NCBI GenBank assembly: GCA_011947345.1
Contig: JAAVTG010000581.1
Location: 806,001 to 870,000, forward strand
Source of the DNA: Phytophthora quininea
Taxonomy: Eukaryota; Oomycota; Peronosporomycetes; Peronosporales; Peronosporaceae
Direction: 5' to 3'
DNA length: 64,000 nt
The notes under the pieces: generated by a model
The model's input: the letters and a program-made list of their open reading frames with translations, nothing else
The model's database searches: none
Told to the model about the DNA's origin: nothing
Position numbers and translations under genes: made by a program
Part shown: one piece after another, positions 8,547 to 38,933 of the stretch
Layout of the letters: each line of letters starts with the position of its first letter
Position numbering within the stretch: the stretch's first letter is position 1

Positions 8547-8554
8547 CGGCACTG

Positions 8555-8570
8555 TGAAATTGGTCGAGTG
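8555..8570 (-). promoter_or_regulatory. Oomycete initiator-like element before the PDR gene
   Basis: On the minus strand the sequence is CACTCGACCAATTTCA. It resembles the oomycete core promoter (an Inr of TCAYTYY type followed by a flanking CAATTT). It sits 9-24 nt upstream of the chosen ATG, consistent with the very short leaders of oomycete genes. Confidence 0.35.
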
Positions 8571-14734: not shown

Positions 14735-15589
14735 CTACTCCTCCTGCGCCTTCTTGAGGCCATGTTTAAGCACTGCGCCGGTCAGTTCCCCGACAAACGG
14801 GTTGGCTGCAATGGGTCCCTGCTGCAGCTTGCGCATGCCGTTGACCACCTCGCGCGTCTTGGAGATGTACAGTCCGTCCAGACTCGAGCGCATGTCGATC
14901 TCCATGTCCTCGACCATCCGTCCCATGTTGGACACGTGGTCGAATTGGTCTTCGAACTCCATGGTGCGCTCCGTCTGGCGAGTGAGCGTGCCGTCCAACG
15001 TCAAGTCTCCGAGTTCCGGCCGCTTCACCTTCATGGCCAGCAGCACGGACGTCGTGAGGCGGTACGTAGCCTTCTTGACGCCCTTGTCCACCACGTCGCT
15101 GCCTTCCTGCACTTCAATGACGTGGATGGAGTTCCACGAGCCTTTCTCAACAAAACGTTGGTCCACCACATCTTTCTTTACTAAGAAACAGGCCGCGAAG
15201 CCTGGCTCCAGGTCCCACATGTAGACGGACGAGATGCCTCCTTGGTAGTAGAGCTCCCTGTACGAGTCGAAGATCTCGTTGGCCTGCACTTCCAGCTCTC
15301 GTAGGGTCTCGGAGGGATAGAACCCTTCCCCGTCATTAACTGCTGGATCGTACTGGTTGGTCCACGGGGACCGATACGAGTCACCGTCGCGGTTGTAGTC
15401 GCACAGGAGGTACTTGCGGCCGTTGGCGGGGTCTACGGCCACTTGCAGCGGCTGATCCACGCGCTGGTACAGGTCGTCGGCCAGGGAAGGCGCCAGACGC
15501 GTGAGGTTGTACACGTCCGTCTCCACCTCGCGCGGGGGCATGCGGCGCATGAGGTTCAGACTCGCCGTCATGGCGTCGGCGTCACTCAT
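14735..15589 (-). CDS. CAPZB: F-actin-capping protein subunit beta
   Basis: An intact, intronless 284-codon gene. Near the N terminus are LNLMRRMPPREVETDVYNL, LYQRVDQPLQVA and GRKYLLCDYNRDGDSYRSPW. Later stretches YMWDLEPGFAACFLVKK, GSWNSIHVIEV and ATYRLTTSVLLAM are hallmarks of CapZ beta. The C terminus KLQQGPIAANPFVGELTGAVLKHGLKKAQEE carries the actin-binding tentacle. Length agrees with the family (about 270-290). With the alpha subunit it caps actin filament barbed ends in the cytoplasm. It is transcribed divergently from RPA49, with 167 bp between the two starts, which suggests a shared promoter region. Confidence 0.97.
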   Translation of the reverse strand: MSDADAMTASLNLMRRMPPREVETDVYNLTRLAPSLADDLYQRVDQPLQVAVDPANGRKYLLCDYNRDGDSYRSPWTNQYDPAVNDGEGFYPSETLRELEVQANEIFDSYRELYYQGGISSVYMWDLEPGFAACFLVKKDVVDQRFVEKGSWNSIHVIEVQEGSDVVDKGVKKATYRLTTSVLLAMKVKRPELGDLTLDGTLTRQTERTMEFEDQFDHVSNMGRMVEDMEIDMRSSLDGLYISKTREVVNGMRKLQQGPIAANPFVGELTGAVLKHGLKKAQEE

Positions 15590-19879: not shown

Positions 19880-21628
19880 ATGCCGCGCCACTCACTATTC
19901 ACGTCAACATTGCTGTCACTTGCCTTGGTGTTGGCCATTATTGACTCCACCTTTGCTACTGGCAACTCCTACCCGACCGTGCTGGTCCACGGCTTCTCCG
20001 GTTGGGGTCGAGACGAACTCCTCGGCTTCAAGTACTGGGGCGGTCTGCAAGGCGATTTCCAACAAGAACTGGAGGCCCAAGGCTTCACCGTCTACACTGC
20101 CGTCGTCGGTCCCTTCTCCAGCAACTGGGACCGAGCTTGCGAACTCTACGCTCAGATCAAGGGCGGCCAAGTCGACTACGGCGAGACGCACTCGACTCAC
20201 TACGGCCACCACCGCTACGGCCGCAACTTCACGGGGTTGTATCCGCAGTGGGGCGAGACCAACGCCGACGGATCGATCAACAAAGTCCACCTCATCGGCC
20301 ACAGTATGGGCGGCCAAACGATCCGCATGCTGACCCAAATGCTCGAGAAAGGAACGACGGGTGCTCCAGTGGAGGAGACTGCATCGACCCACCCGCTCTT
20401 CAAAGGCGGCAATAGCTGGGTGCACTCCATCACGACAGTGTCGACGCCGAACCAGGGCACTCTACTCGCAGACGGGATTTCCTCCATCAGTTCTAGTGTC
20501 TTCGACTTGATTCCAAGTGTGTTTTCCGTTGTCGGGATCGCGGGAGATGAATCCTCTCTCGTCTACGATGCCAAACTGGATCAATGGGGGATCACTGCAA
20601 AGCAAGACGACGAAACTTTGTCCCAATACTTGACGCGCGTATTCTCCAGCAGCATCTTCGATTCGGGATCCAAGGACATGTGTCTTTGGAGCTTGTCAAC
20701 AAGTGGAGCGACTGAGGAGAACACTTGGGTGACCACTCTGTCGGACGTGTACTACTACAGCTTCGTCACTATCGACTCGTACTCGACGGTCGACTAGCTA
20801 CTGCGCAAGATTTCGCTGCCAAACGTCTTGACGATGCTGCTCCCATTAGATGTCATCTCGGTCTTCTTGGGTAGTCGATACGGTCCCAACCACGGCTTCT
20901 CCACCGACTGGCAACCCAACGACGGCGTTGTCAACACCATCTCAATGGCGAGCGACTCCACCGGGACGGTCACTTCGTACAGTGGATCCTCTCAACTCGG
21001 CAAGTGGAATCAAATGATACAGCTCAGCAATGTGGATCACTTGGGGGTGATTGGAATCACTCTTGTTACTCAGATATTCGATCTGTACTCGGCACACGCA
21101 ACGCTTCTCCAAGGCCTTCCAGTTAGTCATTCTTCTCGTCGCCTGGAAGGAGCAGCTGGCACGGACACTGCAGCAGGAACTCTTGAACTGGCCATCCTCT
21201 CGCTGACCGCAGCCTCCACAAACATACAGAAACCTCAAGACCTGACAGGTCTCTGCTCAAGCTATGAGAGTTGCCGACTGGAGATGTCGCTCTACCTCTC
21301 TCGGTGGTCACTCATGTCATGGTCGTGTCCTAGTATAGCTGGGAATAGGCTCACAAGATGGATGGATGGCTTGTGTGGTCAAAGGGGTTTAGGCTGAGAG
21401 CTTCCTCCTCGTGCTCGGCACGTGTACATGTAGTAAGGCGTGGTTAAGCCATGGGAATCTTACTTTGAGTTTTACCTCCAACTGCGCAAGTCTTCTACTT
21501 TCCTGTTTGACACTCTCTCGCAGCACAAAGCTGCTACAAGCCCCGCCAGCACATACGCACAAGCGTACTGCAGCAACTTGCTCGCCGTCACCACTGGATC
21601 GACTCGGCACTTGCGCGGCTCAGCTTGA
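19880..21628 (+). pseudogene. Secreted lipase, copy 1, broken (family I.5 type)
   Basis: It begins with a signal peptide (MPRHSLFTSTLLSLALVLAI) and the core VLVHGFSGWGRDELLGFKYW. The nucleophile elbow GHSMGGQ, the acid in QPNDGVVNTISM and the histidine in VDHLGVIGI are all present. Two lesions exist. TAG at 20795-20797 replaces the TGG of the inverted twin (D-W-L-L becomes D-stop). A 274-bp insertion at 21263-21536 splits the C-terminal cysteine motif. Apart from these, it is nearly identical to copy 4 at 30347-31815. As read, only about 305 residues would be made, without the catalytic Asp and His. Confidence 0.9.
21263..21536. mobile_element. 274-bp insertion with 5-bp target duplication (solo LTR or MITE candidate)
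   Basis: Comparison with the inverted twin shows an extra segment flanked by CAAGC on both sides (21258-21262 and 21537-21541). The insert begins TATGAGAGTTGCC and ends CACAAAGCTGCTA. Five-base duplications suit LTR retroelements, and TGAGAG...TACA offers TG/CA ends when the boundary is shifted. No coding capacity. Confidence 0.7.
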
Positions 21629-21652
21629 ACTGTTAATGTCTTGATAATTGTT

Positions 21653-21945
21653 TTACTCGGTATCATCCGTCAAGTTCTCGCTAGTGTGTCCTTTTGGCTT
21701 GACGTTTTCCTCTCCATTCTCCTGCAGTGCTTGTGTTCGTAGTCGCTTTAAACTTGTCGGCGACGCGTTCTCTTTGTGTGCGCTGCGGGGGCGTTTCTCG
21801 CCGCTAACAAGCAGAGCGGCGACGTCAATCTTGCTGTTGGAGAGCGCAACTTCCAACGGCGTCTGCTTCATGTAGTCTTGCAGCGTCAAGCTCGCTCCTT
21901 CGTCGACAAGCAGTCGCACAGCTTCCTTTCGTCCGAGATAGCAAT
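21653..21945 (-). pseudogene. 3' end of an ankyrin gene, duplicated fragment
   Basis: It reads EAVRLLVDEGASLTLQDYM, then KQTPLEVALSNSKIDVAALL and a lysine-rich tail. This matches the end of the ankyrin gene at 30040-30320 but with an intact frame. It is cut off at about 21945, so it has no start. It lies tail-to-tail with lipase copy 1, as in the right-hand copy. Confidence 0.8.
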
Positions 21946-21950
21946 GTGTC

Positions 21951-22795
21951 CCAGAGTTGTTGTACATAATGATGTCGATAGAAGATCACTATTGGACTAG
22001 TAGCCTGGAATTTACATGTACATCTCAAGAAGACTTTACAGGAGTGGGGGATGGATCGCTTACCGATGTGTAGATCAATGGCAACCCATGGAAGGTCATT
22101 GTGCACACTCCAACACGACTGGGATAAGATAGCACTGCCCCAGCAGAGCCTGACAAGACTTCAGTGAAACATACCTTAAAAATATACACAAGCGACTAGA
22201 AATGGATGCCCGAGCAAAACACAAAGATCGAGAGTTGCTGTCACTTCAACATGGCCTTGAACAATTCGTCCCAGTACAGTGGGGAACTCCACCACGAGCA
22301 GAATCGTTAGCAGTGAAATTTCTGGCCAAACTGGAAGAAATAAACGTTGAGATAACACGCGTTCGAGTAACTACTTACATACCTCCGCGAAACCTTGGTC
22401 AACATTCAGACAGTTACCTTTTCTTTTGCGAATTTACTGTCGTTTCCGCAGATGCAGTTGTAGCAAAACAGCAAGCCTCGCAGACGATCTAACTTGCTAG
22501 ACTTTCATCAGAATAGCAGCGTGCGAACTCCAATAATCTGCTAATGCCTTTCACTCACTCTCTCTTACGTAAAGTTGAATGGTAACCTCTCTTTGTTGTT
22601 ATCGTACTAGTAAACGAGTTTTCTTTTACAGCCTATCGCGACCTCCTTTGGGCGGCGTTGTGGAGCGTGCTTCGCCTCTTAACGTCATATACATAGAGAT
22701 GTTTCGTACTTCGTGACGCACATTTGGGGCCCTTCATCCACGGACTTTCCGAACACCTTGATCGTCCTGCAACTCCTGCAGCTTCAACGCGCCGT
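21951..22795. other. No supported gene
   Basis: The longest frame, 22202-22492 on plus (96 codons, starting MDARAKHKDRELLSL), has no recognisable family. The rest is AT-richer spacer. Confidence 0.35.
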
Positions 22796-23026
22796 TCACA
22801 CCAACTTTCTCTCTTCTTTGTCGTGGTCGGGAAGTTTGTCTTCGTCGTCTGTCGTGTAGTGGCTTCGAAGAAATCGCTTTTTCTCGCCAACGAGAGGCGA
22901 GGAATGGACAACGTTCGACTGATCGGCCTTCGCTGCTGTGTCATTCGCAAGAAAGACGGCTGCAAGAACGACGGCCGCAAGAATGACGGCCGCAAGAACG
23001 GCAATGGTCGTGTTGGAGAGACGCAT
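22796..23026 (-). CDS. Short candidate RXLR-dEER secreted effector
   Basis: 76 codons. Residues 1-27 form a strongly hydrophobic signal peptide built of near-repeats (VLAAVILAAVVLAAVFLA). RFLR stands at residues 51-54, followed by an acidic stretch and KEER at 70-73. This is the spacing of RXLR-dEER effectors, which Phytophthora secretes and which reach plant cells. The frame ends three residues after EER, so there is almost no effector domain. A longer frame continues in another phase to about 22730, so a frame error or truncation is possible. The start is supported by an initiator-like sequence 35-54 nt upstream. Confidence 0.65.
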   Translation of the reverse strand: MRLSNTTIAVLAAVILAAVVLAAVFLANDTAAKADQSNVVHSSPLVGEKKRFLRSHYTTDDEDKLPDHDKEERKLV

Positions 23027-23060
23027 GGCTGGACGTTGGTTGTGGGGTCTTGGGGACTGG

Positions 23061-23080
23061 AGGGAATTTGCGGAATGCAA
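23061..23080 (-). promoter_or_regulatory. Initiator-like element upstream of the RXLR candidate
   Basis: Minus-strand TTGCATTCCGCAAATTCCCT combines an Inr-like CATTCC with CAAATT, the oomycete Inr/flanking pair, at the expected distance from the ATG at 23026. Confidence 0.45.
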
Positions 23081-23628
23081 ACTGCCGCAGTACGTCGTCC
23101 CTCTTGAGTAACTCAAATGAAGCGGCAGGTTAATGGTTGTTTTAGCACCACACAGTTCTGGTACAGCATCTTGTAAGACGCTTACGTGTATATCGTGAGC
23201 GCGATCCCAATAACGAGAACCAGTAATCGTAAAGCACGATCCCAAAATACGCTCCTTGGATCATGTCCCAGAGAGAACAATGACTTGAATGCGATGGTGT
23301 ACAGTGTCCATAAGATGATCTATACATTCTGCCCAGCCTCGTTCTGATCCTGGCAACGCATTCACGTGTCGATTGTTTCCTTCCTACCACGAGGAGCCTC
23401 CGTGATCCCAGCGCCGTTTGCCAGAGGCTCCCCACCTAGCTACAACAGCCTCGTGGTGGCTAACAGAATGCAACGACGACTATCTACTGTCCAAGGACTA
23501 CACGGGAGATGTATCGCACCGCAGTTGTCGACTTCAGCGACGATTCCTAGCAGCTGATGCAGATTATTCTCCACGTTTGTTCTGCGCAGATATTAGGGGG
23601 GCTTCGATTACCGATTATTTGCGAGTCC
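23081..23628. other. No supported gene
   Basis: Short unrelated frames on both strands. This is the boundary between the effector candidate and a retrotransposon remnant. Confidence 0.35.
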
Positions 23629-24549
23629 TCAATCTGCGAAGGCTTGGAATACAACGCCAGAGAGTTGGGCAGCGTGAAGTTGAACGTGTCGGAGGCGAAA
23701 TAGGTCTGGGTTGCAGTTGATGAAGTTGCCGAAATGTGATGTTTGTTTTAGTCGGCGCAGAATGGTGTGATACTGCTGGTGTAGATTCCGGTCTGCGGTT
23801 CTGAGGCGTCTGCGAACGTGTGCTCCAAATGTTGCATATATCGCGACCAGAGCTGTCGCTTTGGGTTCTGGAGTGCCGTCTTCAAAGCATACCGTAATGC
23901 GTTCAGTCCAGCGATGGTGGAGAACTATACATCGTAGCATATTCCAGAGAATAATTAATATGTCGTGGTGTTGCCTCCAATGTTGTACGAAAAGGAGTTT
24001 GTGCGGGAGTACAGCCAAGGTCCACGTGAGTTGTCCGACGAAAAATGTCTCCCAGTCAGACCAAATCAAGGACCATATTGCCGCTGAGGGCGGACATTCC
24101 AAGAAGAGATGTTGAGAAGTCTCAATCGACGAGCACGCTGGGAGCTGACACTGTTGAGCTGAGGGGTCCTGCTGCAACAGGAACCAAAGTCTGGATTTCA
24201 CTGGAAGTAGTCAGAATGCGACTCCCATCGTTATAAACCTGCAGCAGTTCCTGACGGTGTTCTCGACCGAACTCCAGATATTTTTAAGGTGCACTGTAGG
24301 AAATTGAAAGGCATACATAAATTTACCTTCACACGTCAAAGCATTTTTGAGAGGGGTATAATGGAGCACAGCCAGAGGGTGCAGAAGGATGATCGTAGGG
24401 AACTGCCAGCCAATCTGGAGGTGTATTCGACCAGAGACGGCTTGGGTGTACGCAGCCAGCTCAGTGGTGTAGAAGACCCTTCCGAGGCTGCTGCAGGCCG
24501 ACCTGGGGTGCTTTCCACCGTTACTCTCGCACGGCCATCTCAGTGACAT
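23629..24549 (-). mobile_element. LINE-type retrotransposon remnant (reverse-transcriptase zinc-finger end)
   Basis: One leftward frame spans the segment with a single TGA at 24211-24213. After it comes VKSRLWFLLQQDPSAQQC, then CQLPACSSIETSQHLFLECP and WSLIWSDWE. This CxxC...ETxxHLFxxCP arrangement is the zf-RVT module at the C terminus of many plant and protist LINE polyproteins. The catalytic reverse-transcriptase domain is absent, so this is a 5'-truncated, dead copy. Confidence 0.7.
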
Positions 24550-24857
24550 CTGGGCGGCGTTGAACTCACGCGGATGTCAACCAGCGGCCACCTTCGCGAC
24601 TGGAGTGACACCTTGAACCCCCATGCTTGCCAGGTGGTCGCCAATCTTGGTTGCCGTGCATGTCCGTGAAATGCTGCGCTGATACACATCGCCGCTGCCA
24701 AAGGCGAGACGTCCCATGCAAGTGCAACTTGCCATGCAGCCGACTTCCCTCACGTCCGAGTCGTCTTGCTGTCCGAAGGGAATGAAGGATTGTTCATCCG
24801 CCGCAGTCCTCACTTCCGAATTCGCTTCGACGTCCGCACTCCATTCACCTATCGAGG

Positions 24858-26296
24858 ATGTCGATACTTCTACGTCTCGCCACGCTGTTGGTCCTCGCGT
24901 TGGTATCACCGTCCAAGTCGCTAGCCGACAACTCGTATCCGATCATCCTGGTCAACGGCTTCTCCGGTTGGGGTCGTGACGAACTGCTCGGTTTCAAATA
25001 CTGGGGCGGCATCCAAGGAGACTTCCAAGAGGAACTGACGAAACAAGGCTACACGGTCTACACTGCTGCCGTCGGTCCGTTCTCGAGCAATTGGGACCGT
25101 GCCTGCGAGCTGTACACGATCATCAAGGGAGGTCGGGTGGACTACGGTATCAAACACTCGGCTGCGCACAACCACCTCCGCTATGGTCGCAACTACACCG
25201 GACTGTATCCGCAATGGGGTGACTCCAATTCCGATGGCTCCATCAAGAAGGTTCACCTCATCGGCCACAGCATGGGCGGCCAAACCGTCCGGATGCTGGC
25301 CCAATTGCTAGAGCACGGCTCGACGGGGGCACCGATCGAGGAGGATCCATCGACGCACACGCTGTTCAAAGGCGGCAAGACGTGGGTGCACTCAGTCACG
25401 ACGATCGCGTCACCGAACCAGGGCACAACTTTGGGCGACGGCTTCTCGCAGATCGGCGACTCGGTCAAGGACCTTCTTGCCGGAGTGTTGAACGTCGTGG
25501 GCATTCTGGGAGATAGCGCCAAAATGGTCTACGACGCCAAGCTGGATCAGTGGGGAATCACCACCAAACAGTCCGGCGAAACGCTGCAGACGTACATTGA
25601 CCGGGTCTTCTCTAGTAGCATCTTTGCCTCGGGCTTTAAAGATGTTTGCCTTTGGAGCTTGTCAACCCCGGTGCCAAGGAGGAGAGCACGTGGGTGCAGA
25701 CGCTGAGCGACGTCTACTACTATAGCTATGCCACCATCGACACGTACGACACGCGCGACTTGCTCCTGCGCAAGGTATCGCTGCCGAATCTGCTCACGAT
25801 GCTGCTGCCGTTGGATCCGCTCGCGATTTTCCTTGGCAGTCGCTATGCCCCAGACACACTGAAGCTCTCTACGGACTGGCAGCCGAACGACGGCGTCGTC
25901 AACACCATTTCCATGAGCTCAGACGGAGTGGGCACCTCCGTCACGTTTGCCGGGTCTTCGCAAATCGGCAAGTGGAACACGATGCCTCAGTTGAATCGGC
26001 TGGACCACCTGGCGGTGACCGGCATCACGCTGCACACGCAGGTGCTGGATCTGTACGAGGCCCACGCCAAGCTGCTGACGAGTCTACCTACGACGGCATC
26101 TCGACGGTTGGCCGACTCACCTGCTGCCGTGGAGAAGCTCGACGCTGCCATCTTGTCACTGACTGCCGCGACGACGAGTGTGGAGACCAAGAGCGACCTC
26201 GAAACGCTGTGCACGAGCCCCAAGAACTCGTACGCCGAAAGCTACTGCACCCACATGCTCAAGGCTGCCCCCACCACACGTCGGCTGCGAGGGTAG
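24858..26296 (+). CDS. Secreted lipase, copy 2 (family I.5 type)
   Basis: About 479 residues: signal peptide MSILLRLATLLVLALVSPSKS, then YPIILVNGFSGWGRDELLGF, GHSMGGQTVRMLAQLL, QPNDGVVNTISM and LDHLAVTGI. The catalytic Ser, Asp and His are present. The frame changes at the CCCC run 25666-25669; one added C makes it open throughout. The oxyanion-site motif HGF is NGF here, a substitution not seen in the other five copies. The C-terminal extension carries the Cys pair LCTSPKNSYAESYC. Expected role: hydrolysis of host or environmental triacylglycerols outside the cell. Confidence 0.88.
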
Positions 26297-27222
26297 AACG
26301 CAGAGTCTGTCGAGAAGGACCGTATCATTTTGAAATGCCACGCCTCACGTTGAAGGTTTAGTGTCCCTTGTAGCAGACGAAACCTTGATGTGCCGGATCA
26401 GCTGCTGACTCTTGACATGTTCCGAACTCTTGAGCTCTTCAACATGAGGAGCCAGACCACGACGATGTACGTTGGGCCCTGCAGTGTTAGCGTTGGCAGG
26501 AAGACTTCCGGATTCTTGTCAACGGCACTTCCGAGTCGCGTTTGACACCGCAACGGCTGGAGCTTCGAGTCGCAGCAGTAACGGGTCCGCGGTCCCACAG
26601 GACACGCACACTTGGCTGCGGCTTGCCATCGCGTCCGCTTCCCTCCAGCAATATGGCGAGAATGGTGATCACCAGCCAGCCACTGGCAGCCATCCGACGT
26701 GGTGAAACCCGTGCAAAGCGTGCAGGATGGAATTTCGCCCGCGGGATTGGGCTCTGACGCTGCTCTCAGCAATCACAGTCGTCAATGCTGCCTATTCGAG
26801 CGCACAAGCGGCCTCTACGGAAAAGCTACTCCCGGTTGATTATCTCGGTGGTGTCCGTACCCCAAGCAGCACCAACGTCTGAGCAGCGTGCAGTCCATGA
26901 CGGCAAGGACTACCAACGTGGTGACCAAGATGCGAGCTGTGGCCACTCAGCCTGAGTAGCAGACCAGCTTTTGAGCTTTGCTGCTGAAATTCTGCGGGAA
27001 CAGGTGGCTGCGCTTTGTGATCCTGCAAGTGCTTGCCATGAAGAGCCTCCCGTCTTTGCCGCTCCGAGCCATCACCGCCGTTGCACTTTACGACTTCCCA
27101 ACCTTTCCTTGCACGAGATGGAGCTAGCCACGCAGCTCTCTTGCTCGTCACGACCAACTTGACCGTGACGTCCTTCCAATCCCTCCAGGCCCACCGAGAG
27201 CAAAGGCGACCTTGCCACACTA
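26297..27222. other. No supported gene
   Basis: Frames up to 126 codons occur on minus (26840-27220; 26398-26772). One internal frame at 26693-26487 starts with a signal-like MAASGWLVITILAILLEGSG and runs 68 codons. No family is recognised, so I do not call it. Confidence 0.35.
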
Positions 27223-27237
27223 CTCATTCTTCAATCT
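27223..27237 (+). promoter_or_regulatory. Strong oomycete core-promoter match before lipase copy 3
   Basis: CTCATTCTTCAATCT reproduces the oomycete Inr (CTCATTY) plus flanking CAAT-type element, 35-50 nt upstream of the ATG at 27273. Confidence 0.55.
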
Positions 27238-27272
27238 ACTGCGGGTGAAGTCCAACAAGGGTCGACAAGAGG

Positions 27273-28780
27273 ATGCGGACATTGCTCAGTCTCGCGTTGC
27301 TGCTGCTGAATGCGGCAATTGTACATGCTACCAACACATACCCGGTGATTCTGGTGCACGGCTTCGCCGGTTGGGGTCGCGACGAGCTACTGGGTTTCAA
27401 ATACTGGGGCGGCATCCAAGGTGACCTTCAAGAAGAGCTTGAGGCACAGGGCTACACGGTCTACACGGCCTCGATCGGGCCGTTTTCAAGCAATTGGGAC
27501 CGTGCCTGCGAGCTGTATGCGCAGATCAAGGGTGGGGTGACGGACTACGGAGTCGAACACTCGTCGAAATACGGCCACGACCGCTACGGCAAGAACTACA
27601 CGGGACTATATCCCGAATGGGGAGACCAACTCGGACGGATCGGTCAACAAGGTTCACCTGGTTGGCCACAGTATGGGCGGCCAGACCGTTCGGATGTTGG
27701 CCCAACTGCTCTCGCAGGGGTCGACTGGGGCCCCGGTGGAGGAGACGTCGTCTACCAGTGCTCTGTTCGAAGGTGGACACGACTGGGTGCACTCGATCAC
27801 GACCATCTCGACCCCCAACCAGGGCACGACGCTGGCCGACGGGTTTTCCGAGATCGGTGACACCGTCAAGGACCTGCTAGTAACGGTCATCAATTTCCTC
27901 GGCATCTTTGGCGAGAACGCAGAGATGATCTACGATGCCCAACTGGACCAGTGGGGGATCACCGCCAAGACGGACGACGAGACGCTGCAAGAGTACATCG
28001 ACCGAGTGTTCGCGAGCGACATCTTCGACTCTGGCTACAAGGATCTGTGCATTTGGAGTCTGTCGGTGTCGGGGGCCAAGGAGGAGAGCACGTGGGTCGA
28101 GACGCTCAGTGATGTCTACTACTACAGCTACGCTACCAAAGACACCTTCTCCACTTACAACTTGAAGCTGCAGAAGATCTCGTACCCGAACGTGTTGACG
28201 ATGCTGCTGCCTCTCGACGTCACATCCATTTTCCTCGGCAGTCGCTACGCCCCGACACGTTGGGGCTCTCGACCGACTGGCAGCCCAACGACGGCGCCGT
28301 CAACACCATCTCCATGAGCCAGGACTACGTGGGCGACCTCGTCTCGTTCAGCGGCTCGTCGGTGATCGGGAAGTGGAATGAGATGACGCAGCTCACAGGT
28401 TTGGACCATTTGGGGGTCACCGGCATCACGCTGCTCTACCAAATCCTGGATCTGTACAAGGCCCACATGGCGCTGCTCTACAGTCTCCCCAGCGACTCGA
28501 CCTCGTCTCGTCGACTGGTGGAGAACACGACGGTCACCACCAAGCTGGACAGCGCTATCTCTTCATTGAACGCTGCGACTGCCAGCTTGCAGACTCAGGA
28601 AACCTCGAAGCGCTCTGCGAAAACCCCATCAACACGTACGCCGAGAACTACTGCGCCAACATGCTCAACACGACGTTAGTCAACAACACCATCGCGACAG
28701 CTAACGCCACCGTTGAGACTGCAACCAACACCAGTGTGTCTAGCGAAGCCACCACCACACGCAGACTGCGCGTGAACTAG
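27273..28780 (+). CDS. Secreted lipase, copy 3, three frame breaks (family I.5 type)
   Basis: Signal peptide MRTLLSLALLLLNAAIVHA, then YPVILVHGFAGWGRDELLGF, the SSNWDRACELY and DYGVEHSSKYGHDRYG segments, GHSMGGQTVRML, QPNDGAVNTISM and LDHLGVTGI. The frame breaks at GGGG 27619-27622, at CCCC 28250-28253 and near 28602. Each is repaired by one base, giving about 500 residues ending RRLRVN at 28780. All positions equivalent to the catalytic triad and to the zinc ligands of bacterial relatives are kept. Two of three breaks are in homopolymers, so sequencing error is the likelier cause; recent pseudogenisation is not excluded. Confidence 0.8.
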
Positions 28781-28917
28781 GTCAATAGCTGTGCAATAGT
28801 AATTGCGTGAAATGGTCAAGCTTTTCATGTAGCACAAGCCAACGCTGCTAGTCGACAAAGCACCCGAAAAAATGGCTACACAAATGGTCAGCAGACAGAA
28901 AATCCTAAGAACGACTG

Positions 28918-30320
28918 ATGGAGCTGGTTACCGCGGCTACCAAGGGCGACCTCCGGCTCGTTCGCCAGGCGCTCTCGCACGACTGCAAGCTGGACGAGGT
29001 CAACTCTCGCGGCTGCTCGGCCTTGATGCAGGCGGCGCGCATGAACTTTGTGGAAATCATGACGCTGCTGCTGGTCAACGACGCGTCCGTCAACTTGCAG
29101 CGAGCCGACGGCTGCACTGCGCTGCACGTGGCCATCGAGAGCCAGCAGCTGCGAGCCGTTAAACTACTGCTGGACTTCGATGCCGACGTCGCAATCGGCG
29201 ACAATCGAGGCGTGACGCCGTTGATGCAGGCTGTCGAGAAGGGGCTGCTGAGTCTGGTCAAAGTTCTGGCCAAGAGAGCTCCGCAGTCCTTGAACGCCGT
29301 GTCAAAAGACGGCACCACCGCTCTTGGAGTCGCCGCCTTGAACGGACAAGTGGAGGCGATGAAGCTGCTGCTGGAGAGTGAGAACGTGGCCTTGAATGGT
29401 AATTGCGCACCTGGTAGAACAGCTTTGATGCTGGCTGCTAAAGCAGGGCAAGTGGACGTAGTGACGGCTCTGTTAGATAAAGAAGTGTCGTGGACAAGGT
29501 GGCTCAAGACGGCAATACAGCACTCACTCTAGCGACGGAGGGCGGCCACATGGAGGTGGTCCAGCTCCTGCTGGATCGAGGCGCCAAGCTCAACAAACAC
29601 TACGTGGAAGTGGCGCCGTTGGCTGTAGCAGCCCAGAACGGCCACGTAGAGATCATGAAGCTCTTGCTGAGCAGAAAAGCTCGTGTCAATGCCTACGATG
29701 GCGACTGGGACACTGCACTGCACGAGGCAGTGTACAATAATCAGATAGACGCCGTGCGAGTGCTGGTGAACAGCACCCCATGCGCCGATGTAAACAAACG
29801 CAACCGTAGCGGGTGGACGCCCGTTATGGCAGCGACGCAGCGCAATCACATCGAGATGATCGAGCTGTTGGTCGAAAAGGAGCGTCCGTGACAGTCAAGA
29901 CAAACGACGGACGGACGGCGCTGCATATTGCAGCCGAAGAGAATCGAGTGGAAGTGATCCGCTTGCTGATGAAGCACGGAGCGTTAATTGACGCTGTGGA
30001 CCGACTGGACCGAACGCCATTGATGATGGCGGCGTATCGCGGACGGAAGGAATCTGTGCGACTGTTTCTCGACAAGGAGCGAGCTTGACGCTGCAAGACT
30101 ACATGAAGCAGACGCCGTTGGAAGTTGCGCTCTCGAACAGCAAGATCGACGTCGCCGCTCTGCTTGTTAGCGGCGAGAAACGCCCCCGCAGCGCACACAA
30201 AGAGAACGCGTCGCCGAAAGTTTAAAGCGACTACGAACACAAGCACTGCAGGAGAATGGAGAGGAAAACGTCAAGCCAAAAGGACACACTAGCGAGAACT
30301 TGACGGACGATACCGAGTAA
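28918..30320 (+). CDS. Ankyrin-repeat protein, several frame breaks
   Basis: About 467 residues made almost wholly of ankyrin repeats: GCSALMQAARMNFVEIMTLL, GCTALHVAIESQQLRAVKLL, GVTPLMQAVEKG, GRTALMLAAKAGQVDVV, GNTALTLATEGGHMEVVQLL, GWTPVMAATQRNHIEMIELL and GRTALHIAAEENRVEVIRLL. A lysine-rich C-terminal tail follows. Frame changes occur near 29487, at AAAA 29875-29878, near 30078 and near 30221. The truncated duplicate at 21653-21945 is intact over the last two sites, which shows what the ancestral frame was. Likely a cytosolic binding protein; partner unknown. It ends 26 bp from the end of the convergent lipase copy 4. Confidence 0.75.
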
Positions 30321-32280
30321 AAGCAATTATTCAAGACGTTAACAGTTCAAGCTGAGCCGCGCAAGTGCCGAGTCGATCCAGTGGTGATGGCGAGCAAGTT
30401 GCTGCAGTAAGCTTGTGCGTATGTGCTGACGGGGCTTGAGCAGAGACCTGTCAGGTCTTGAGGTTTCTGTAGGTTTGTGGAGGCTGCGGCCAGCGAGAGG
30501 ATGGCCAGTTCAAGAGTTCCTGCTGCAGCGTCCGTGCCAGCTGCTCCTTCCAGGCGACGAGAAGAATGACTAACTGGAAGGCCTTGGAGAAGCGTTGCGT
30601 GTGCCGAGTACAGATCGAATATCTGAGTAACAAGAGTGATTCCAATCACCCCCAAGTGATCCACATTGCTGAGCTGTGTCATTTGATTCCACTTGCCGAG
30701 TTGAGAGGACCCACTGTACGAAGTGACCGTGCCGGTGGAGTCGCTCGCCATTGAGATGGTGTTGACAACGCCGTCGTTGGGTTGCCAGTCGGTGGAGAAG
30801 CCATGGTTGGGACCGTATCGACTACCCAAGAAGACCGAGATGACATCTAATGGGAGCAGCATCGTCAAGACGTTTGGCAGCGAAATCTTGCGCAGTAGCC
30901 AGTCGACCGTCGAGTACGAGTCGATAGTGACGAAGCTGTAGTAGTACACGTCCGACAGAGTGGTCACCCAAGTGTTCTCCTCAGTCGCTCCACTTGTTGA
31001 CAAGCTCCAAAGACACACGTCCTTGGATCCCGAATCGAAGATGCTGCTGGAGAATACGCGCGTCAAGTATTGGGACAAAGTCTCGTCGTCTTGCTTTGCA
31101 GTGATCCCCCATTGATCCAGCTTGGCATCGTAGACGAGAGAGGATTCATCCCCCGCGATCCCGACAACGGAAAACACACTTGGAATCAAGTCGAAGACAC
31201 TAGAACTGATGGAGGAAATCCCATCTGCGAGTAGAGTGCCCTGGTTCGGCGTCGACACTGTCGTGATGGAGTGCACCCAGCTATTGCCGCCTTTGAAGAG
31301 CGGGTGGGTCGATGCAGTCTCCTCCACTGGGGCCCCGTCGTTCCTCTCTCGAGCATCTGGGTCAGCATGCGGATCGTTTGGCCGCCCATACTGTGGCCGA
31401 CGAGGTGAACTTTGTTGATCGATCCGTCGGCGTTGGTCTCGCCCCACTGCGGATACAACCCCGTGAAGTTGCGGCCGTAGCGGTGGTGGCCGTAGTGAGT
31501 CGAGTGCGTCTCGCCGTAGTCGACCTGGCCGCCCTTGATCTGAGCGTAGAGCTCGCAAGCTCGGTCCCAGTTGCTGGAGAAGGGACCGACGACGGCAGTG
31601 TAGACGGTGAAGCCTTGGGCCTCCAGTTCTTGTTGGAAGTCGCCTTGCAGACCGCCCCAGTACTTGAAACCGAGGAGTTCGTCTCGACCCCAACCGGAGA
31701 AGCCGTGGACCAGCACGATCGGGTAGGAGTTGCCAGTAGCAAAGGTGGAGTCAATAATGGCCAACACCAAGGCAAGTGACAGCAATATTGACGTGAATAG
31801 TGAGTGGCGCAGCATTTCCTCTTGCGGACGCTGAAGCAACTTGGATAATGGCAGGTATGGACCGAGAGGTCGATAAGGTCGTCGCTTCGGGGAACGATGG
31901 CCCTGCATGGATTACTCGAGACGAACAAGCAGCATTCCCGCCCAGATCGACAGTCTCGATACTGCTAGAGGGTACCAACCATCCTCGTTAGCGCCTACTG
32001 TGAGGGCCTCGAAAGACACACGGTTGACGGTCCATGGAGGGATATGAACGACGAAGCAGACACACAGAGGATCTGGGGCGGAGGTCTCTCTTGGCTCATC
32101 ACGAGTCGTCGTGATTCAAGACGACTATGGGGTCTCCTAGCTTGTCATCAGCATATGTTGCTTCAGAGGGGATACTCGTCGTGAAGCATGTCCTGATAGC
32201 AATGAAAGCGTTCTGATCACTTTTCCGCAGCTGACTCCTCACTGTCAGTCGCAGTATGGAGGCCTTGATGTTTGTCCAGG
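30040..32280. repeat. Inverted segmental duplication, right copy
   Basis: Reverse-orientation match to 19250-21950. It holds lipase copy 4, its upstream region and the 3' end of the ankyrin gene. Here the ankyrin gene is complete, so this side is probably the source and the left side the derived copy. Confidence 0.8.
30347..31815 (-). CDS. Secreted lipase, copy 4 (family I.5 type), twin of copy 1
   Basis: Signal peptide MLRHSLFTSILLSLALVLAI, then YPIVLVHGFSGWGRDELLGF, GHSMGGQTIRML, YDAKLDQWGI, QPNDGVVNTISM and VDHLGVIGI. The C-terminal Cys pair is LCSSPVSTYAQAYC. The only break lies in the run GGGGCCCC at 31329-31336; one extra base opens the frame for about 489 residues. It keeps TGG where copy 1 has TAG, and it lacks the insertion. 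It is therefore the functional member of the inverted pair. Confidence 0.88.
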
Positions 32281-32566
32281 TGGCCTAAATATGCAGAATT
32301 CCACACCTTAACTTACAGCACAGATATCTCTGTCAGCTCGCGTAGTGATGATGGCACTTTCGAGACCATCAACTGCGTCATCGGCAGTCGCCAAATTTCC
32401 AAGCGTGTAGCAAGCCCAGAGCTTTTGGTCGTTGGTTCCAAGGCACATCCGTCAGTGACTTCAACTAGCTGAGAAAAACGTTTTTTATTTCGTATTTTAT
32501 ACGATTTCTTAATCGAGTCTCGAAGAAGCATCCAAGTAAAGGAGGTGAAGAAGCGCCACGCCAGAC
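32281..32566. other. Short intergenic segment
   Basis: A 72-codon leftward frame (32313-32531) has no family. The rest is the 5' flank of the BSD gene. Confidence 0.35.
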
Positions 32567-34108
32567 ATGTCGTTCAGCAGCTTCTACTCGGTGGTTAACG
32601 CCATCAAGGACAAGGTCTGACTGCTAATCTTCTTCCCACCTTGCCCACAGCCCAAAAGAACGCGTTTCTTGCGCGTCGTGGGCGATTCTCCTTATGAAAT
32701 CCAGTCTTCTTAACTAACTTGCTTGGAATATTTTGTTTCTTAGTCGGCGGAGGCCATGACGACGCTCAGTTCCGACCTCCAAGACTTCACCTCTATTGTA
32801 CAGGAGGTAAGGCTCAACAATCTATAAGAAAAGGCCGGTGTAAAAACTAAATTATGTTTATTATCATTATAATATCGACAGGACGTGGCGGAGTTGTCCA
32901 AGCAAGTTCGGCAAAACATGGAGGAGCGTCGACAGAGTGTGGAGAAACAGTCAAAGGACGGAGAAGACGCCAAAGCGAAGAGCGACGACGACCACGAGGA
33001 GAAACAGGATGACAAACAGGACGAGACAGTAGTGGACCCGGAAGAGATGCCCATGGAGGACCCACTAGTACAGTTGAAGAACTCTTTGTTCTCCTTTGAC
33101 GTTAGCAGCACGCTGGGCTCGGTGAGCTCCACGGTCGGCAGCAAACTTGGCTCGCTGAACCAGGTGGGCTCGACGGTCGGCAGCAAGTTGGGCTCGTTGA
33201 GCGTGGGGACCAGTCTGGAGTCTCTGGAAGCCATGGGCTCCAAGCTGTTGAACTCGGCAGACGAGTTTCTAGGCACTCTAACTGGAGATACACTGTACGA
33301 AGACGAAGAACTGAGCGAGAGCGAGCTCAGTGCGCGGCGATTCCGCTTACTGGCGCTGCAGGAGGACTCGGACACTTACATCGAGCCTCCCATTGACGTG
33401 GAGACGTTCGAGAAGTGGAAACTGACCATCCCAGCTGCAGAACTGACCGATATCCAGACAGAAGTGCTGGAGAACTACCCGACTGTCGGCACCAAGTTCA
33501 CGGAGCTGGTGCCGTCGGTGGTGGAGGCCGACGTGTTCTGGGCGCACTACATTTACAAGGCCTCGCTTCTGGCTGCCCAAGAGCAGCGCGGAGCGGACTT
33601 GCTGGAGCATGGTACGTACTACAAGCTTGGTAGTTGTCAACTACTGTACTTAGCTGTTGTGTTAGCTTTGAACGACAGTGAGGAGGAACTTGGCTGGGAT
33701 GTCGACTCTCCAAAGAAGACTGAGAAGGAATTCTTCCCGGACGAAGAGGCCAAAGAGGAAGAGAAGGCGCCGACTGGCACTTCAACTCCTGCAGCTAATC
33801 CACCGTCGTCCAGCGATGGCGAGAGCTGGATCGAACTGGACGAGCGGAAGGACTCGACGTCCTCGAAAGGATCCGCCTCGCCGAATGCTTCGGCTGGTCT
33901 GAAAGAGCCGACGAGCTCTCTGGCTGATCTGAAGCTGGACGAGGGAGATGAAGCAGCTGCTGAACAGGAAGACTCGCTGGACTGGGGCGACGATGACGAT
34001 GAGATCGTGCCGGAAACTGCATCACCTGATGCTAAGAAGCAGGAGACGACTCCGGCAACCCACGAGGACGCCAGCAAGCGTGGTGAGGACTGGGGCGAGT
34101 GGGACTAA
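32567..34108 (+). CDS. BSD-domain protein (SYAP1-like)
   Basis: Four exons (32567-32614, 32744-32806, 32882-33611, 33666-34108) give 427 residues. The N terminus MSFSSFYSVVNAIKDK and SSDLQDFTSIVQE form the amphipathic leader seen in SYAP1-like proteins. Repeats of STVGSKLGSL follow, then a BSD domain at about residues 210-270 with ETFEKWKLTIPAAELTDIQ and VEADVFWAHYIYKASLL. The C terminus is acidic and ends GEDWGEWD. The last intron is 54 nt and in frame, so retention would insert 18 residues without a stop. Related proteins act in signalling and membrane traffic; I cannot be more specific. Confidence 0.82.
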
Positions 34109-34233
34109 GAGAAATGGCACTTCCATGTCCTCTATCGATCCCCATGAATCCAATTTGTCAATCCCATTCGCGATTGCTCTTTGTGGACCTGCGTCTGCTG
34201 CATTCTATTGACACCATCCCACCGAGTTTATCG

Positions 34234-35727
34234 TCACAGGCGTGATCGACAACCAGTCTGTTGAGTTCCTAGACTTTCACTATTTCGCTGATAAGAACTC
34301 TTCAACCACAGTACCGTTGCGTTATGCTGACCGAGTATCAGTCGGCAGTTGTTTCCGGCATACTTGTTGGCGGGACTCGCGCAGAGCTGCTCGATGTCTT
34401 CTTGAGTCTGTACGCTCGATCGTTCCGACACAACCGAAGAGATAGCATTGGTGATTGTCTTGTGGACCATTTTGTTGTGCACGACACTCCGCGCTTCCAT
34501 ATCCACTGGAAGACTCGCCAACAACTGAGCAAGTGACGAATACACGCTCATGATCTTCGAAAACAGTGAGAAGCCCGTGACGTCCATGTGGTCCACGCCC
34601 GTGAGCTGTTTCATTTGGTGCCACCTGCCAGCTTGCGATGTTCCGTTGAACGTCACCAGCTCACCAACACCGTCATGGCTCATGGAGAATGTGTTGACGA
34701 TGCCGTCGTTCCGCTGCCACTCCGTCGTGAGATTTAGCTCATCAGGCGCATATCGACCGCCGAGAAACACCGAAAGCTCACCGAACGCGGGGTTCATAGT
34801 AAACGGATTCGGCAGCTGAATCTTCTCGAGTCTCAAATTGACCGATGCGAACGTGTCGACGGTGGCGTAGCTGTAGTAGTAGACATCGTCTAACGTCTCG
34901 ACCCACGTGCTCTCCTCAGCAGCGCCAGCCACAGACAAACTCCAGAGACAAGTGTCCTTGAACGACGGGTCGAACAACCTGCTCGACATGATGCGGTCGT
35001 AGTAGTCCCGGATCGATTCGTCGTTAGCTCTTGAAGAAACATTCCACTGACCCAGCTGCGCGTCAAAGACCGCAGCGGTGCTGTCCCCCGCAACGCCAAT
35101 GATGCTCAACGTGGCAGCGATCGCGTCCTTCATCGCATCGCCAATGATCGAGAACCCGTCCGCCAGAGTTGTGCCTTGGTTGGGCGACGCGATCGTCGTG
35201 ATCGAGTGCACCCAATTCTTGCCGCCTTCGAACAGCGGGTGGGTCGCTGCTTCTTCCTCGGTTGGGGAGCCCACCGTTCCTTTCTCGAGCATCTGCGCTA
35301 ACATCCGAACGGTTTGACCGCCCATACTGTGGCCGACGAGGTGGATCTTGTTCACGGAGCCATCAGAATTGGTCTCACCCCACTGCGGATACAAGGCCGT
35401 GTAGTTCTTGCCAAACCGAGCGTGCCCATGCGTTGCTGAATGCTCGACCCCATAGTCCACTTGACCTCCTTTGATCTGCGCGTAGAGCTCGCAAGCGCGG
35501 TCCCAATTGCTCGAGAATGGACCGATGGATGCTGTGAACACTGTGTAGCCCTGGTCGATAAGTTTTTCTTGTATGTCACCTTGAGCACCGCCCCAATACT
35601 TGATACCGAAGAGTTCGTCGCGACCCCACCCACCGAAGCCGTGGACGAGTACGATCGGGTACGTGTTGTTGGCCACAACCAGAGGCGACACGAAAGCAAG
35701 AACCAAAAGTGTCAACCACCTCGTCAT
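34234..35727 (-). CDS. Secreted lipase, copy 5 (family I.5 type), intact
   Basis: The only copy with an unbroken frame, 497 residues. Signal peptide MTRWLTLLVLAFVSPLVVA, then YPIVLVHGFGGWGRDELFGI. Catalytic serine in GHSMGGQTVRML, aspartate in QRNDGIVNTFSM, histidine in VDHMDVTGF. The segments SSNWDRACE and DYGVEHSATHGHARFG, and the Asp of FKDTCLWSLS, correspond to the Asp/His/His/Asp zinc site of Geobacillus lipases. It is the most diverged member (FDAQLGQWNV where others have YDAKLDQWGI). The C-terminal extension has LCASPANKYAGNNC and then 30 residues absent from the others. Expected to act on triacylglycerols or phospholipids outside the cell. Confidence 0.93.
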   Translation of the reverse strand: MTRWLTLLVLAFVSPLVVANNTYPIVLVHGFGGWGRDELFGIKYWGGAQGDIQEKLIDQGYTVFTASIGPFSSNWDRACELYAQIKGGQVDYGVEHSATHGHARFGKNYTALYPQWGETNSDGSVNKIHLVGHSMGGQTVRMLAQMLEKGTVGSPTEEEAATHPLFEGGKNWVHSITTIASPNQGTTLADGFSIIGDAMKDAIAATLSIIGVAGDSTAAVFDAQLGQWNVSSRANDESIRDYYDRIMSSRLFDPSFKDTCLWSLSVAGAAEESTWVETLDDVYYYSYATVDTFASVNLRLEKIQLPNPFTMNPAFGELSVFLGGRYAPDELNLTTEWQRNDGIVNTFSMSHDGVGELVTFNGTSQAGRWHQMKQLTGVDHMDVTGFSLFSKIMSVYSSLAQLLASLPVDMEARSVVHNKMVHKTITNAISSVVSERSSVQTQEDIEQLCASPANKYAGNNCRLILGQHNATVLWLKSSYQRNSESLGTQQTGCRSRL

Positions 35728-36578
35728 TTTGAGAGAAGCTTTGGGTCTTGGCTGCAGAGCAATATCACGAGTGCTGATTGCACTCGGCTAGCGGTAAGCG
35801 ACTGGAGCATGGCTTTCTAACCCAGCAAGCGGGATCTACTAAAGCCTGTAGGAGGTCAAGCCAATCGTCGAGGATTTTCGTTGTCGTCCGCGTTGCACTT
35901 GCTGCGGTCAAAGGCAAAAGAAGCGCACAGCTGTCCTGCGTTTGACTAGTTGTGCAGGAAATCGCCTCGAGATGTGCATTGGTAACGAGCCAAAACACCG
36001 ACCGGAAGCTCAGTTCCGGCGGACTTTCCTTCATTGACCTCGCCGAAAGCCAAGTGGTGCTGTCCAAGCAGGTCCTTCGAGAGGTACAATCGCAGCGGCC
36101 GCAGTAGAGACCAACGTGGTTGGCGAGATTCTCACACTTTGCAGCTGGAACGGAAGAAGCTTACGGACGGCACTGCTCTACCCGACCAACGACAAAGCTC
36201 GTGATCATTGTTGTGCCAAAAGATATTGCAGCGACGTGTTGGAGGCAACCAGCCCGCTCTGAATGCTGCAATTTGTCGGCCACTCGGCAAAAACGCGCAT
36301 GCCTCCACACCGTCATTCTGGGCGTGGGTCTTGTGTCATTTCGTGCTACATGCCGTCGATTTTCTTGACGCTTTCTTCGTTGCTGTTGATCAAAGGCAAT
36401 TTCGTCGACCATGAATGTCAAGCAGAACATTATGCCAGACAGGCTATTGCGGCTGTGGGATCGTGCTGCTGAAACCGGTGCTGTTTTGTTGGAAACTCTT
36501 AGGCGCCATCCTCAGGAGTTTTGCCCATAATGAGCAGAACCGAACGTCTCAAAACGACAGACGAGATCCACGCCTCCG
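35728..36578. other. No supported gene between divergent lipases
   Basis: Frames of 60-100 codons without domains (for example 35765-36067 minus, 36161-36430 minus). Confidence 0.35.
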
Positions 36579-36585
36579 TCATTCC
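36579..36585 (+). promoter_or_regulatory. Initiator-like TCATTCC before lipase copy 6
   Basis: TCATTCC fits the oomycete Inr and lies 28 nt upstream of the ATG at 36614, supporting that start over the upstream ATG at 36521. Confidence 0.35.
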
Positions 36586-36613
36586 TCTATCGTCTTCCTC
36601 CGAGAACAATCAA

Positions 36614-38045
36614 ATGCCGTTGTATTTCCAGGTCGTCGCGGTAGTGGTCTCACTTGCTTCGCTGCTGCTGGCTACCGACGCCGCTGGCAACTCCTACCCG
36701 ATCGTGCTGGTCCACGGCTTCTCCGGTTGGGGTCGAGACGAACTCCTCGGTTTCAAGTACTGGGGCGGTCTGCAAGGCGACTTCCAACAAGAACTGGAGG
36801 CCCAAGGCTTCACCGTCTACACTGCCGTCGTCGGTCCCTTCTCCAGCAACTGGGACCGAGCTTGCGAGCTCTACGCTCAGATCAAGGGCGGTCAGGTCGA
36901 CTACGGCGAGACGCACTCGACTCACTACGGCCATCACCGCTACGGCCGCAACTTCACGGGGTTGTATCCGCAGTGGGGTGAGACCAACGCCGACGGATCG
37001 ATCAACAAAGTTCACCTCGTCGGCCACAGTATGGGCGGCCAAACGATCCGCATGCTGACCCAAATGCTCGAGAGGAACGACGGGTGCCCCAGTGGAGGAG
37101 ACTGCATCGATCCACCCGCTCTTCAAAGGCGGCAATAGCTGGGTGCACTCCATCACGACAGTGTCGACGCCGAACCAGGGCACTCTACTCGCCGATGGAA
37201 CAGCCACGATGGGAAACACGCTCGAAGACTTGACCTTGGGCCTGTTGAACGTCATCGGGATCGCTGGGAACGAGCCAAACCTCTTCTACGACGCCAAATT
37301 GGATCAGTGGGGGATCACCGCCAAGACTCGAAGCGAGACGCTCGTCGAGTACTTGCATCGAGTGTTCAACAGCAGCATTTTCGAGCCTGGTTCGAGGGAC
37401 ATCAGCGCCTGGAGTTTGTCCACGAAAGGAGCCGCAGAAGAGAACAAGTGGGTCACGACGTTGCCTGACGTCTACTACTACAGCTTCACCGCCGTGGACA
37501 CGTTCTCGACGCGCGACTGGCTGCTGCGGAAGATCTCCATGCCCAACGTCCTGACCATGATGCTCCCTCTGTGCGTCAGCTCGACGTTTCTAGGCAGTCG
37601 CTTCGGCCCCGAGCACGGCCTCTCGACGGACTGGCAGCCCAACGACGGCGTCGTCAACACCGTCTCCATGGCGAGCGACTCGACAGGCCAAGTCGTGCCC
37701 TTCAAAGGGGTCTCGTACATTGGCAAGTGGAATCAGATGCCGCTGCTCAAGTTCACGGACCACATCGCCATCGTCGGCATCACGTTGCTCGCTCGGATGA
37801 TCGGATTGTACTCGGCCCACGCCAAGCTGTTGCAGAGTCTGTCAGTGACGCCCCAAAGCCAAGCAGTGCACACCGAAGCTACCGTCGATATCTACACCTC
37901 CATCTCGTCCGTCACCGCAGCCACTGCCAACGCGCAGACCGAGGAAAACGTGCAAATGCTTTGCGATTCCTCGAGTTCCAACAAATACGTCGACGCATAT
38001 TGCAACCATGTTCGGACTGAGGCCACGCAGGTCATGCGCCACTAA
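36614..38045 (+). CDS. Secreted lipase, copy 6 (family I.5 type)
   Basis: Signal peptide MPLYFQVVAVVVSLASLLLA. The first 150 residues after it match copies 1 and 4 almost exactly, while the second half (ATMGNTLEDLTLGLLNVIG onward) is clearly different, so the gene looks like a mosaic. GHSMGGQTIRML, QPNDGVVNTVSM and TDHIAIVGI supply the triad. Near 37071-37076 the frame shifts: compared with copy 1 two bases are missing after CTCGAGA. The second half is open to the stop at 38045. Cys pair in LCDSSSSNKYVDAYC. About 477 residues if repaired. Confidence 0.87.
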
Positions 38046-38273: not shown

Positions 38274-38933
38274 ATGATGCTCGTGAAGCGTGCCGTGTCC
38301 ACCGCCCGCTGCCAGTCGCGAGGCATCGCGACGGTGACGCTGCCGGACTTGGCCTACGACTTTGGCGCGCTGGAGCCGTCCATCAGCGGCCAGATCATGG
38401 AGATCCACCACCAGAAGCACCACCAGACGTACGTCACCAACTACAACGCCGCCCTGGAGCAGTACGCCGAGGCTGAGGCCAAGAAGGACAACGCCAAGAT
38501 GCTGACGCTGCTGCCGGCGCTCAAATTCAACGGCGGGGGCCACGTCAACCACTCCATCTTCTGGACCAATCTGGCCCCCAAGACTCAGGGCGGTGGTGGC
38601 GAGCCCGACGGAGAGCTGCGTAAGGCCATCGACCAGGAGTTTGGCAGCTTCGAGCAGTTCAAGAAGACCATGGCCGCCAAGTCGGCGGGCGTGCAGGGCT
38701 CCGGCTGGGGCTGGCTGGGCTACTCGCCTGAGAGCAAGCGCGTCGGCGTGGTGACGACGCCCAACCAGGACCCGTGCTCCACCACCGGCTACGTGCCGCT
38801 GCTGGGTATCGACGTGTGGGAGCACGCCTACTACCTGCAGTACAAGAACGTGCGTCCGGACTACTTGAAGGCCATCTGGGACGTCGTGAACTGGAAGAAC
38901 GTCGAGGAGCGCTACCTGGTGGCCAAGAAGTAA
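38274..38933 (+). CDS. SOD2: Mitochondrial manganese-type superoxide dismutase
   Basis: An intact, intronless 219-codon gene with strong GC bias at third positions. The first 20 or so residues ([19 protein letters not shown]) are a basic mitochondrial presequence. Metal ligands are the His of [13 protein letters not shown], the His of [11 protein letters not shown], and Asp and His of [22 protein letters not shown] places the outer-sphere Gln as in Mn enzymes. It converts superoxide to peroxide in the matrix. A long antisense frame (38061-38945) is a composition shadow. Confidence 0.97.

Follow-up and report, generated by a model that had tools for sequence, protein, structure and literature searches.

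The locus described here raises the question of how an oomycete came to carry a local group of secreted lipases of bacterial type, and whether the members of the group are still in working order. The DNA analysed (hereafter the window) is a stretch of 64,000 nucleotides from Phytophthora quininea (GenBank assembly GCA_011947345.1, contig JAAVTG010000581.1, positions 806,001 to 870,000 of the forward strand). Between 19.88 and 38.05 kb of the window lie six homologous lipase genes, four on the plus strand and two on the minus strand. The explanation that we hold with good confidence is that they form a local cluster of family I.5-type secreted lipases or carboxylester hydrolases, gained from bacteria and then expanded.

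Six lipase genes and their family

The six genes, numbered by position, are as follows.

19880..21262, plus strand: lipase copy 1; signal-peptide-like N-terminus and catalytic core, in-frame TAG at 20795-20797, tail split by an inserted repeat
24858..26296, plus strand: lipase copy 2; single frame change near 25665
27273..28679, plus strand: lipase copy 3; two frame changes, at about 27.6 and 28.25 kb
30347..31815, minus strand: lipase copy 4; inverted near-duplicate (98%) of copy 1, single frame change near 31.33 kb
34234..35727, minus strand: lipase copy 5; uninterrupted frame of 497 residues, Ser134-Asp341-His380, zinc ligands Asp76, His96 and His102, Gly226 at the fourth position
36614..38045, plus strand: lipase copy 6; single frame change near 37.07-37.13 kb

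All six loci reported in the earlier note were recovered far beyond chance, as judged by the E-values against Pfam Lip_C and PDB entry 5AH0. Copy 5, which that note had called intact, is indeed the sole uninterrupted copy among the six. It scored 202 bits against Pfam Lip_C (PF24708; E 1.5e-59, cut-off 27 bits). Its best solved structure by sequence was 5AH0 (E 2e-107, 363 bits), followed by 5AH1 (2e-89), and structures of Geobacillus-type lipases gave E-values of about 1e-82.

Lipase family I.5 is characterised by a Ser-Asp-His triad and a zinc site built from two Asp and two His residues (PMC12616515). The triad is intact in all six copies, and its residues are kept in 99, 101 and 98 of 103 aligned relatives. 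All four zinc ligands are present in five copies (1, 2, 3, 4 and 6); the zinc-site His of copy 3 was read from its open frame, at a place where two frames overlap in the alignment. In copy 5, residue 226 is Gly in place of the second ligand Asp, so that three of the four ligands are kept. The motifs SSNWDRACELY, GHSMGGQ, NDG(I/V/A)VNT and DH were found in every copy, as had been noted before, whereas the VHGF opening assigned to all of them does not hold for copy 2, which reads VNGF. A signal peptide had also been ascribed to each copy, and a hydrophobic N-terminus does stand immediately ahead of the mature start in all six, on Kyte-Doolittle hydropathy only. By sequence, the cluster proteins are of the bacterial lipase family I.5 type.

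The earlier note had likened the pattern to that of Geobacillus and Staphylococcus lipases. The thermoalkalophilic lipases of Geobacillus (4X6U, 2DSN and others) do belong to the same family and share the triad and the zinc ligands. They score below the Pelosinus lipase, however, and the tree does not single them out as the nearest branch, and their nucleophile elbow differs. Ala in an A-x-S-x-G elbow is typical of the Bacillus and Geobacillus members of family I.5, whereas the elbow residue is Gly (GHSMGG) in all six copies. Since Ala occurs in only 14 of 43 bacterial rows, this residue is no defining mark of the wider family. The staphylococcal YSIRK lipases (NCBIfam NF047351) share a homologous core, which matched at 250 bits; this score is below the family cut-off of 650, and the first 329 profile positions were unmatched. 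The closest comparison is with the Pelosinus fermentans lipase in 5AH0, which we take to be the lipase named PfL1. It is 46% identical over 78% of copy 5 and has the same triad and zinc ligands, but its elbow reads AHSMG rather than GHSMG and it has no C-terminal extension.

Such an extension distinguishes the oomycete proteins more generally. Its median length is 71.5 residues in 104 oomycete-clade rows (copy 5 together with rows P0001-P0103 of the protein search described below, with or without organism label), versus a median tail of 3 residues in 43 bacterial proteins read to the stop. The pattern C-x(8-14)-Y-C occurs in the tail of 60 of the 104 oomycete-clade rows and in none of the 43 bacterial proteins. 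We would guess that the extension is a disulphide-bonded helical tail. Under a transfer from bacteria, it is a change that arose after the transfer.

Relatives, tree placement and origin

A protein search with copy 5 gave 939 matches, and the statements on its relatives rest on the best 120 of these. This is the search of the intact copy that the earlier note had proposed; among the matches listed, oomycetes came first and bacteria next. All organism-labelled rows among P0001-P0103 are oomycetes, of 30 species in nine genera (Phytophthora, Nothophytophthora, Peronospora, Hyaloperonospora, Bremia, Plasmopara, Pythium, Globisporangium and Lagenidium). The closest among the matches listed is from Phytophthora boehmeriae (74%; 78% over the tree columns). 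Pythium ultimum, which is now Globisporangium ultimum, has members of the secreted lipase family (P0038 and others). Directly after the oomycete rows stand P0104-P0120, which are bacterial or without organism label and 40-47% identical; the first labelled bacterium among the matches listed is Pelosinus (46%). When genome contigs were scanned with the Pelosinus protein, 77 bacterial loci were found, in Bacillota, Pseudomonadota, Spirochaetota, Chloroflexota and others. Adjacent locus tags occur in P. boehmeriae (002256/002257), Bremia (007582/007583), Pythium oligandrum (012706/012707 and 013703/013704) and Lagenidium (009853/009854), which suggests that lipase clusters are common among oomycetes.

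The same genome contains a second, distant Lip_C family (contigs C534, C159, C150 and C419), which is also present in Phytophthora, Pythium, Saprolegnia, Aphanomyces and others, and flowering plants carry a further Lip_C group (best 120 of 353 rows). These proteins share the Pfam family PF24708 with the cluster lipases but differ in their separate tree position, in a VFGFG-type opening and in extending to Saprolegnia and Aphanomyces. Since such lipases exist in oomycetes and in plants, the label "bacterial-type" fits the secreted oomycete clade and not the whole Pfam Lip_C family. Loci L013, L014, L015 and L016 belong to the second family; an unrelated open frame adjoins the lipase in L013, L015 and L016, with a signal-like start in L013 and L015.

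A quick tree of 109 chosen proteins and a careful tree of 69 of these (40 left out) were calculated; 43 of the 77 bacterial loci entered the trees. A 61-row set was made without the plants and without five rows that were long or odd, and a 74-row set by taking three rows out and eight in. These omissions were our own choice, made to save time or to avoid long branches. Fungal AHSMG lipases, described as highly divergent from Geobacillus 2Z5G (PMC9408867), were left out of the trees.

In the 69-protein tree the secreted oomycete proteins form one clade (support 100/97), which in the 109-protein quick tree encloses three rows without organism label. Its sister consists of the ENA sequences P0087, P0091 and P0098 (100/100), and the two together are nested in a bacterial subtree (100/98) that holds Pelosinus, Clostridium, Paenibacillus and proteobacterial members. 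Outside this subtree are a planctomycete, two further sequences, the plants and the second oomycete family. In approximately unbiased (AU) tests, a grouping of all eukaryotes was rejected (p 0.009 with 69 rows, 0.036 with 74 rows), as was a grouping of the secreted with the second oomycete family (p 0.003 and 0.025, respectively). By eye, P0087, P0091 and P0098 have hydrophobic N-termini; these sequences could date the transfer.

The earlier note had named a tree beforehand as the test of an ancient transfer from bacteria, and a place among general eukaryotic lipases as the result that would speak against it. The trees do not show such a place, and a single eukaryotic origin is rejected by four of the five AU tests. 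In the 61-row set, however, a grouping of the two oomycete families as one clade is not rejected (p 0.136), and the AU verdict therefore depends to some degree on sampling. Several other points weigh against the reading proposed here. The tree program gave a long-branch warning for the 109-, 69- and 74-row trees; in the 109- and 74-row trees the long branches of the plants, the second oomycete family and P0151 meet. In the AU tests P0087, P0091 and P0098, together with P0152 in the 69-row test, were counted as eukaryotes by assumption. The donor group is not singled out, neither a Clostridia-type (p 0.309) nor a proteobacterial origin (p 0.302) being rejected. No Saprolegniales or Albugo names are present among the best 120 of the 939 matches, which do not prove absence from these groups. 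Two of the 43 bacterial proteins have long tails, of 42 and 179 residues. Finally, the Gly at the zinc position of copy 5 is found in none of the 103 aligned relatives, which have Asp (98) or Glu (5).

Part of this evidence could also be accommodated if Lip_C were an ancient eukaryotic family, retained in some oomycetes and widely lost elsewhere, with no transfer into oomycetes. The Lip_C proteins of plants and of the second oomycete family, and the result with 61 rows, would fit such a history. The position of the secreted clade inside the bacterial subtree and the four rejections would not, and we consider the history quite unlikely. A further argument against it is weak: copy 5 matches 5AH0 over the whole core at 363 bits and its own genome's second family at 80 bits at best, in pieces, but these are separate searches and the genes of the second family are split.

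Bacterial contamination of the assembly, which the strong similarity to bacterial lipases might bring to mind, is refuted by the surroundings of the cluster and can be regarded as practically negligible. The contig spans at least 870 kb, in an assembly of 87.2 Mb in 993 contigs, and the homologues in 30 oomycete species point the same way. The neighbouring genes include the following.

4405-8681, minus strand: PDR-type ABC transporter gene, read in two overlapping frames
14735..15589, minus strand: F-actin capping protein beta, a eukaryotic gene
28918-29891: ankyrin-repeat gene, with duplicated ankyrin fragments at 21531-21940 and 30035-30443
38274..38933, plus strand: Fe/Mn superoxide dismutase gene

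A BSD-domain protein and a glutathione transferase are further neighbours, and all are ordinary eukaryotic genes; F-actin capping protein beta marks the locus as nuclear. The third-position GC of the lipase pieces tested was 0.65-0.74, versus 0.75-0.93 in three neighbours. Scans of the window for tRNA genes and Rfam families gave no matches.

The transfer from bacteria is thus supported by the order of relatives, the nested clade and the refutation of contamination, with reservations on sampling. We propose that an ancestor of the Peronosporales-Pythiales oomycetes would have gained one family I.5-type gene from a bacterium, and that the acquired family would then have come to bear a signal peptide of host type and, at the C-terminus, an extension of about 70 residues. 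The copies would have multiplied via tandem and inverted duplication, with gene conversion partly homogenising them.

Duplications and interrupted frames

The claim of the earlier note that the transfer was followed by local expansion is supported. The expansion is nevertheless old, and it is shared across the group instead of being peculiar to this genome. Both main subclades of the secreted clade contain Globisporangium and Pythium rows, and one of them contains Phytophthora rows; the first duplication therefore probably predates the Pythium-Phytophthora split.

Within the window, copies 1 and 4 are inverted duplicates, 98% identical with flanking DNA included; a flank of about 400 bp with a piece of the ankyrin gene was co-duplicated with them (96%). 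The ankyrin gene and its fragments are interleaved with the lipase copies and formed part of the inverted duplication. Copies 2 and 3 share about 75% identity. One tract links copies 4 and 6.

36684..37074, plus strand: tract of copy 6, 391 nt, 99% identical to copy 4 by sequence comparison

The tract begins just past the signal-peptide region, and beyond about 37.15 kb the identity to copy 4 is only 50-78%. Gene conversion is the likely cause, with an assembly chimera at a repeat as the alternative.

The ratio of nonsynonymous to synonymous substitution rates (dN/dS) was 0.00-0.23 for the N-terminal pieces (14 of 15 pairs with usable dS) and 0.13-0.45 for the C-terminal pieces (13 of the 14 pairs compared, one of 15 being too short), the dS of the older pairs being near saturation. 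These low values point to purifying selection on the copies. Parts of the region recur at about 89-97% identity in contigs C906, C907, C697 and C51 of the same assembly, which most plausibly represent the other haplotype; C906, C907 and C697 each start within a lipase gene.

Five of the six copies are interrupted, copy 1 by an in-frame stop and copies 2, 3, 4 and 6 by frame changes. Introns were ruled out as the cause, the adjacent matches overlapping or abutting. The breaks were compared with genes of other families in the same assembly. Frame changes without room for an intron were counted by hand in 5 of 16 chaperonin loci above 100 bits (6 weaker loci excluded) and in 4 of 9 HSP90 loci; two of the five broken chaperonin loci, C858 and C859, seem to be a single gene represented twice, and the broken loci may partly be true pseudogenes. 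Examples are C636:75054-76545, C3:1433426-1434898 and C376:7248-8761. Since these chaperone genes break in the same way, the assembly probably carries many small indels, so that pseudogene claims from it need care, and programmed frameshifting of the lipases is unlikely.

If the frame changes were real, the cluster would be mostly dead and copy 5 alone functional. The number of interrupted copies speaks for this, as do the stop and the inserted repeat in copy 1 and the fact that contig C906 also has the breaks near residue 266 of copy 2 and residue 328 of copy 3. The set of breaks in C906 is not the same, however: the break near residue 118 of copy 3 is missing there, and C906 has others that are absent from the window. 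Runs of G or C coincide with several of the lipase breaks, although not visibly with that of copy 6, and the low dN/dS also argues against a dead cluster, which we regard as doubtful. Given the broken chaperone genes, the G or C runs and the pattern in C906, most of the lipase frame breaks are probably assembly errors.

Copy 1 has to be set apart, on account of its in-frame TAG and of the repeat inserted in its tail.

21263..21530, no strand assigned: dispersed repeat, 268 bp, in the tail of copy 1

The repeat has nine genome matches at 97-100%, itself included, and neither copy 4 nor the C906 allele contains it. A 5-base direct repeat was seen by eye at its ends, and it appears to be similar to a long terminal repeat. 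The C906 allele of copy 1 has no stop at the TAG site, although it carries a separate frame change. Copy 1 as it stands in the window is probably a true pseudogene.

Possible function and meaning

The cluster proteins are built like a secreted ester hydrolase. Starting from what the analysis observes directly, namely homology, residues, tree placement and duplications, the protein would be exported, would adopt a fold like that of the Pelosinus lipase, would bind zinc and would cleave esters by its Ser-Asp-His triad. Its use in feeding or infection, with acylglycerols or plant lipid polyesters as putative substrates, is predicted on the same grounds.

It is possible, if rather improbable, that the main role is interaction with the host, such as the release of lipid signals, instead of nutrition. 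The secretion-like N-termini and the expansion of the lineage in a group rich in plant pathogens would agree with such a role. Members of the family occur, however, in Lagenidium giganteum, Pythium insidiosum and P. oligandrum as well, species that grow on animals or on other microbes, and this favours a general digestive role.

Bacterial relatives that include PfL1 of Pelosinus are reported to degrade the polyester polybutylene adipate terephthalate (PBAT; PMC12616515). The genome report of P. ultimum gives 31 lipases and no cutinase, while citing cutinase activity in culture filtrates, and apple cutin gave no growth (PMC2926784). Lipase mRNA was reported from potato tubers infected by P. ultimum and Phytophthora infestans (PMC6493774). 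Since some bacterial relatives cut polyesters, the secreted lipases might supply the cutin-degrading activity of P. ultimum, which has no recognised cutinases. That these enzymes are a second class of oomycete polyester hydrolases from bacteria, which degrades cutin or suberin and underlies the filtrate activity, is a tentative suggestion that we think more probably wrong than right.

The Phytophthora cutinases (CE5) belong to an enzyme family distinct from the cluster lipases. They nevertheless provide a precedent of a bacterial ester hydrolase gained by oomycetes, having been called bacterial-derived (Belbahri 2008, as cited in PMC4316629). A systematic search by McCarthy and Fitzpatrick gave five transfers (PMC5023847). 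The word "lipase" is absent from the main text of four surveys (PMC5023847, PMC4447370, PMC4316629 and PMC2705460). No published account of bacterial-derived lipases in oomycetes was found among the open-licence papers listed, and priority can thus not be claimed.

The present case would add to a short list of bacterial genes in oomycetes. A 2025 survey describes the sequence cluster of the lipase family as exclusively bacterial (PMC12616515), and a eukaryotic branch in nine oomycete genera changes this picture of the family. Since close bacterial relatives cut polyesters, the enzymes allow a direct test of the way in which oomycetes that lack recognised cutinases handle plant lipid polymers, and may be a new source of polyesterases.

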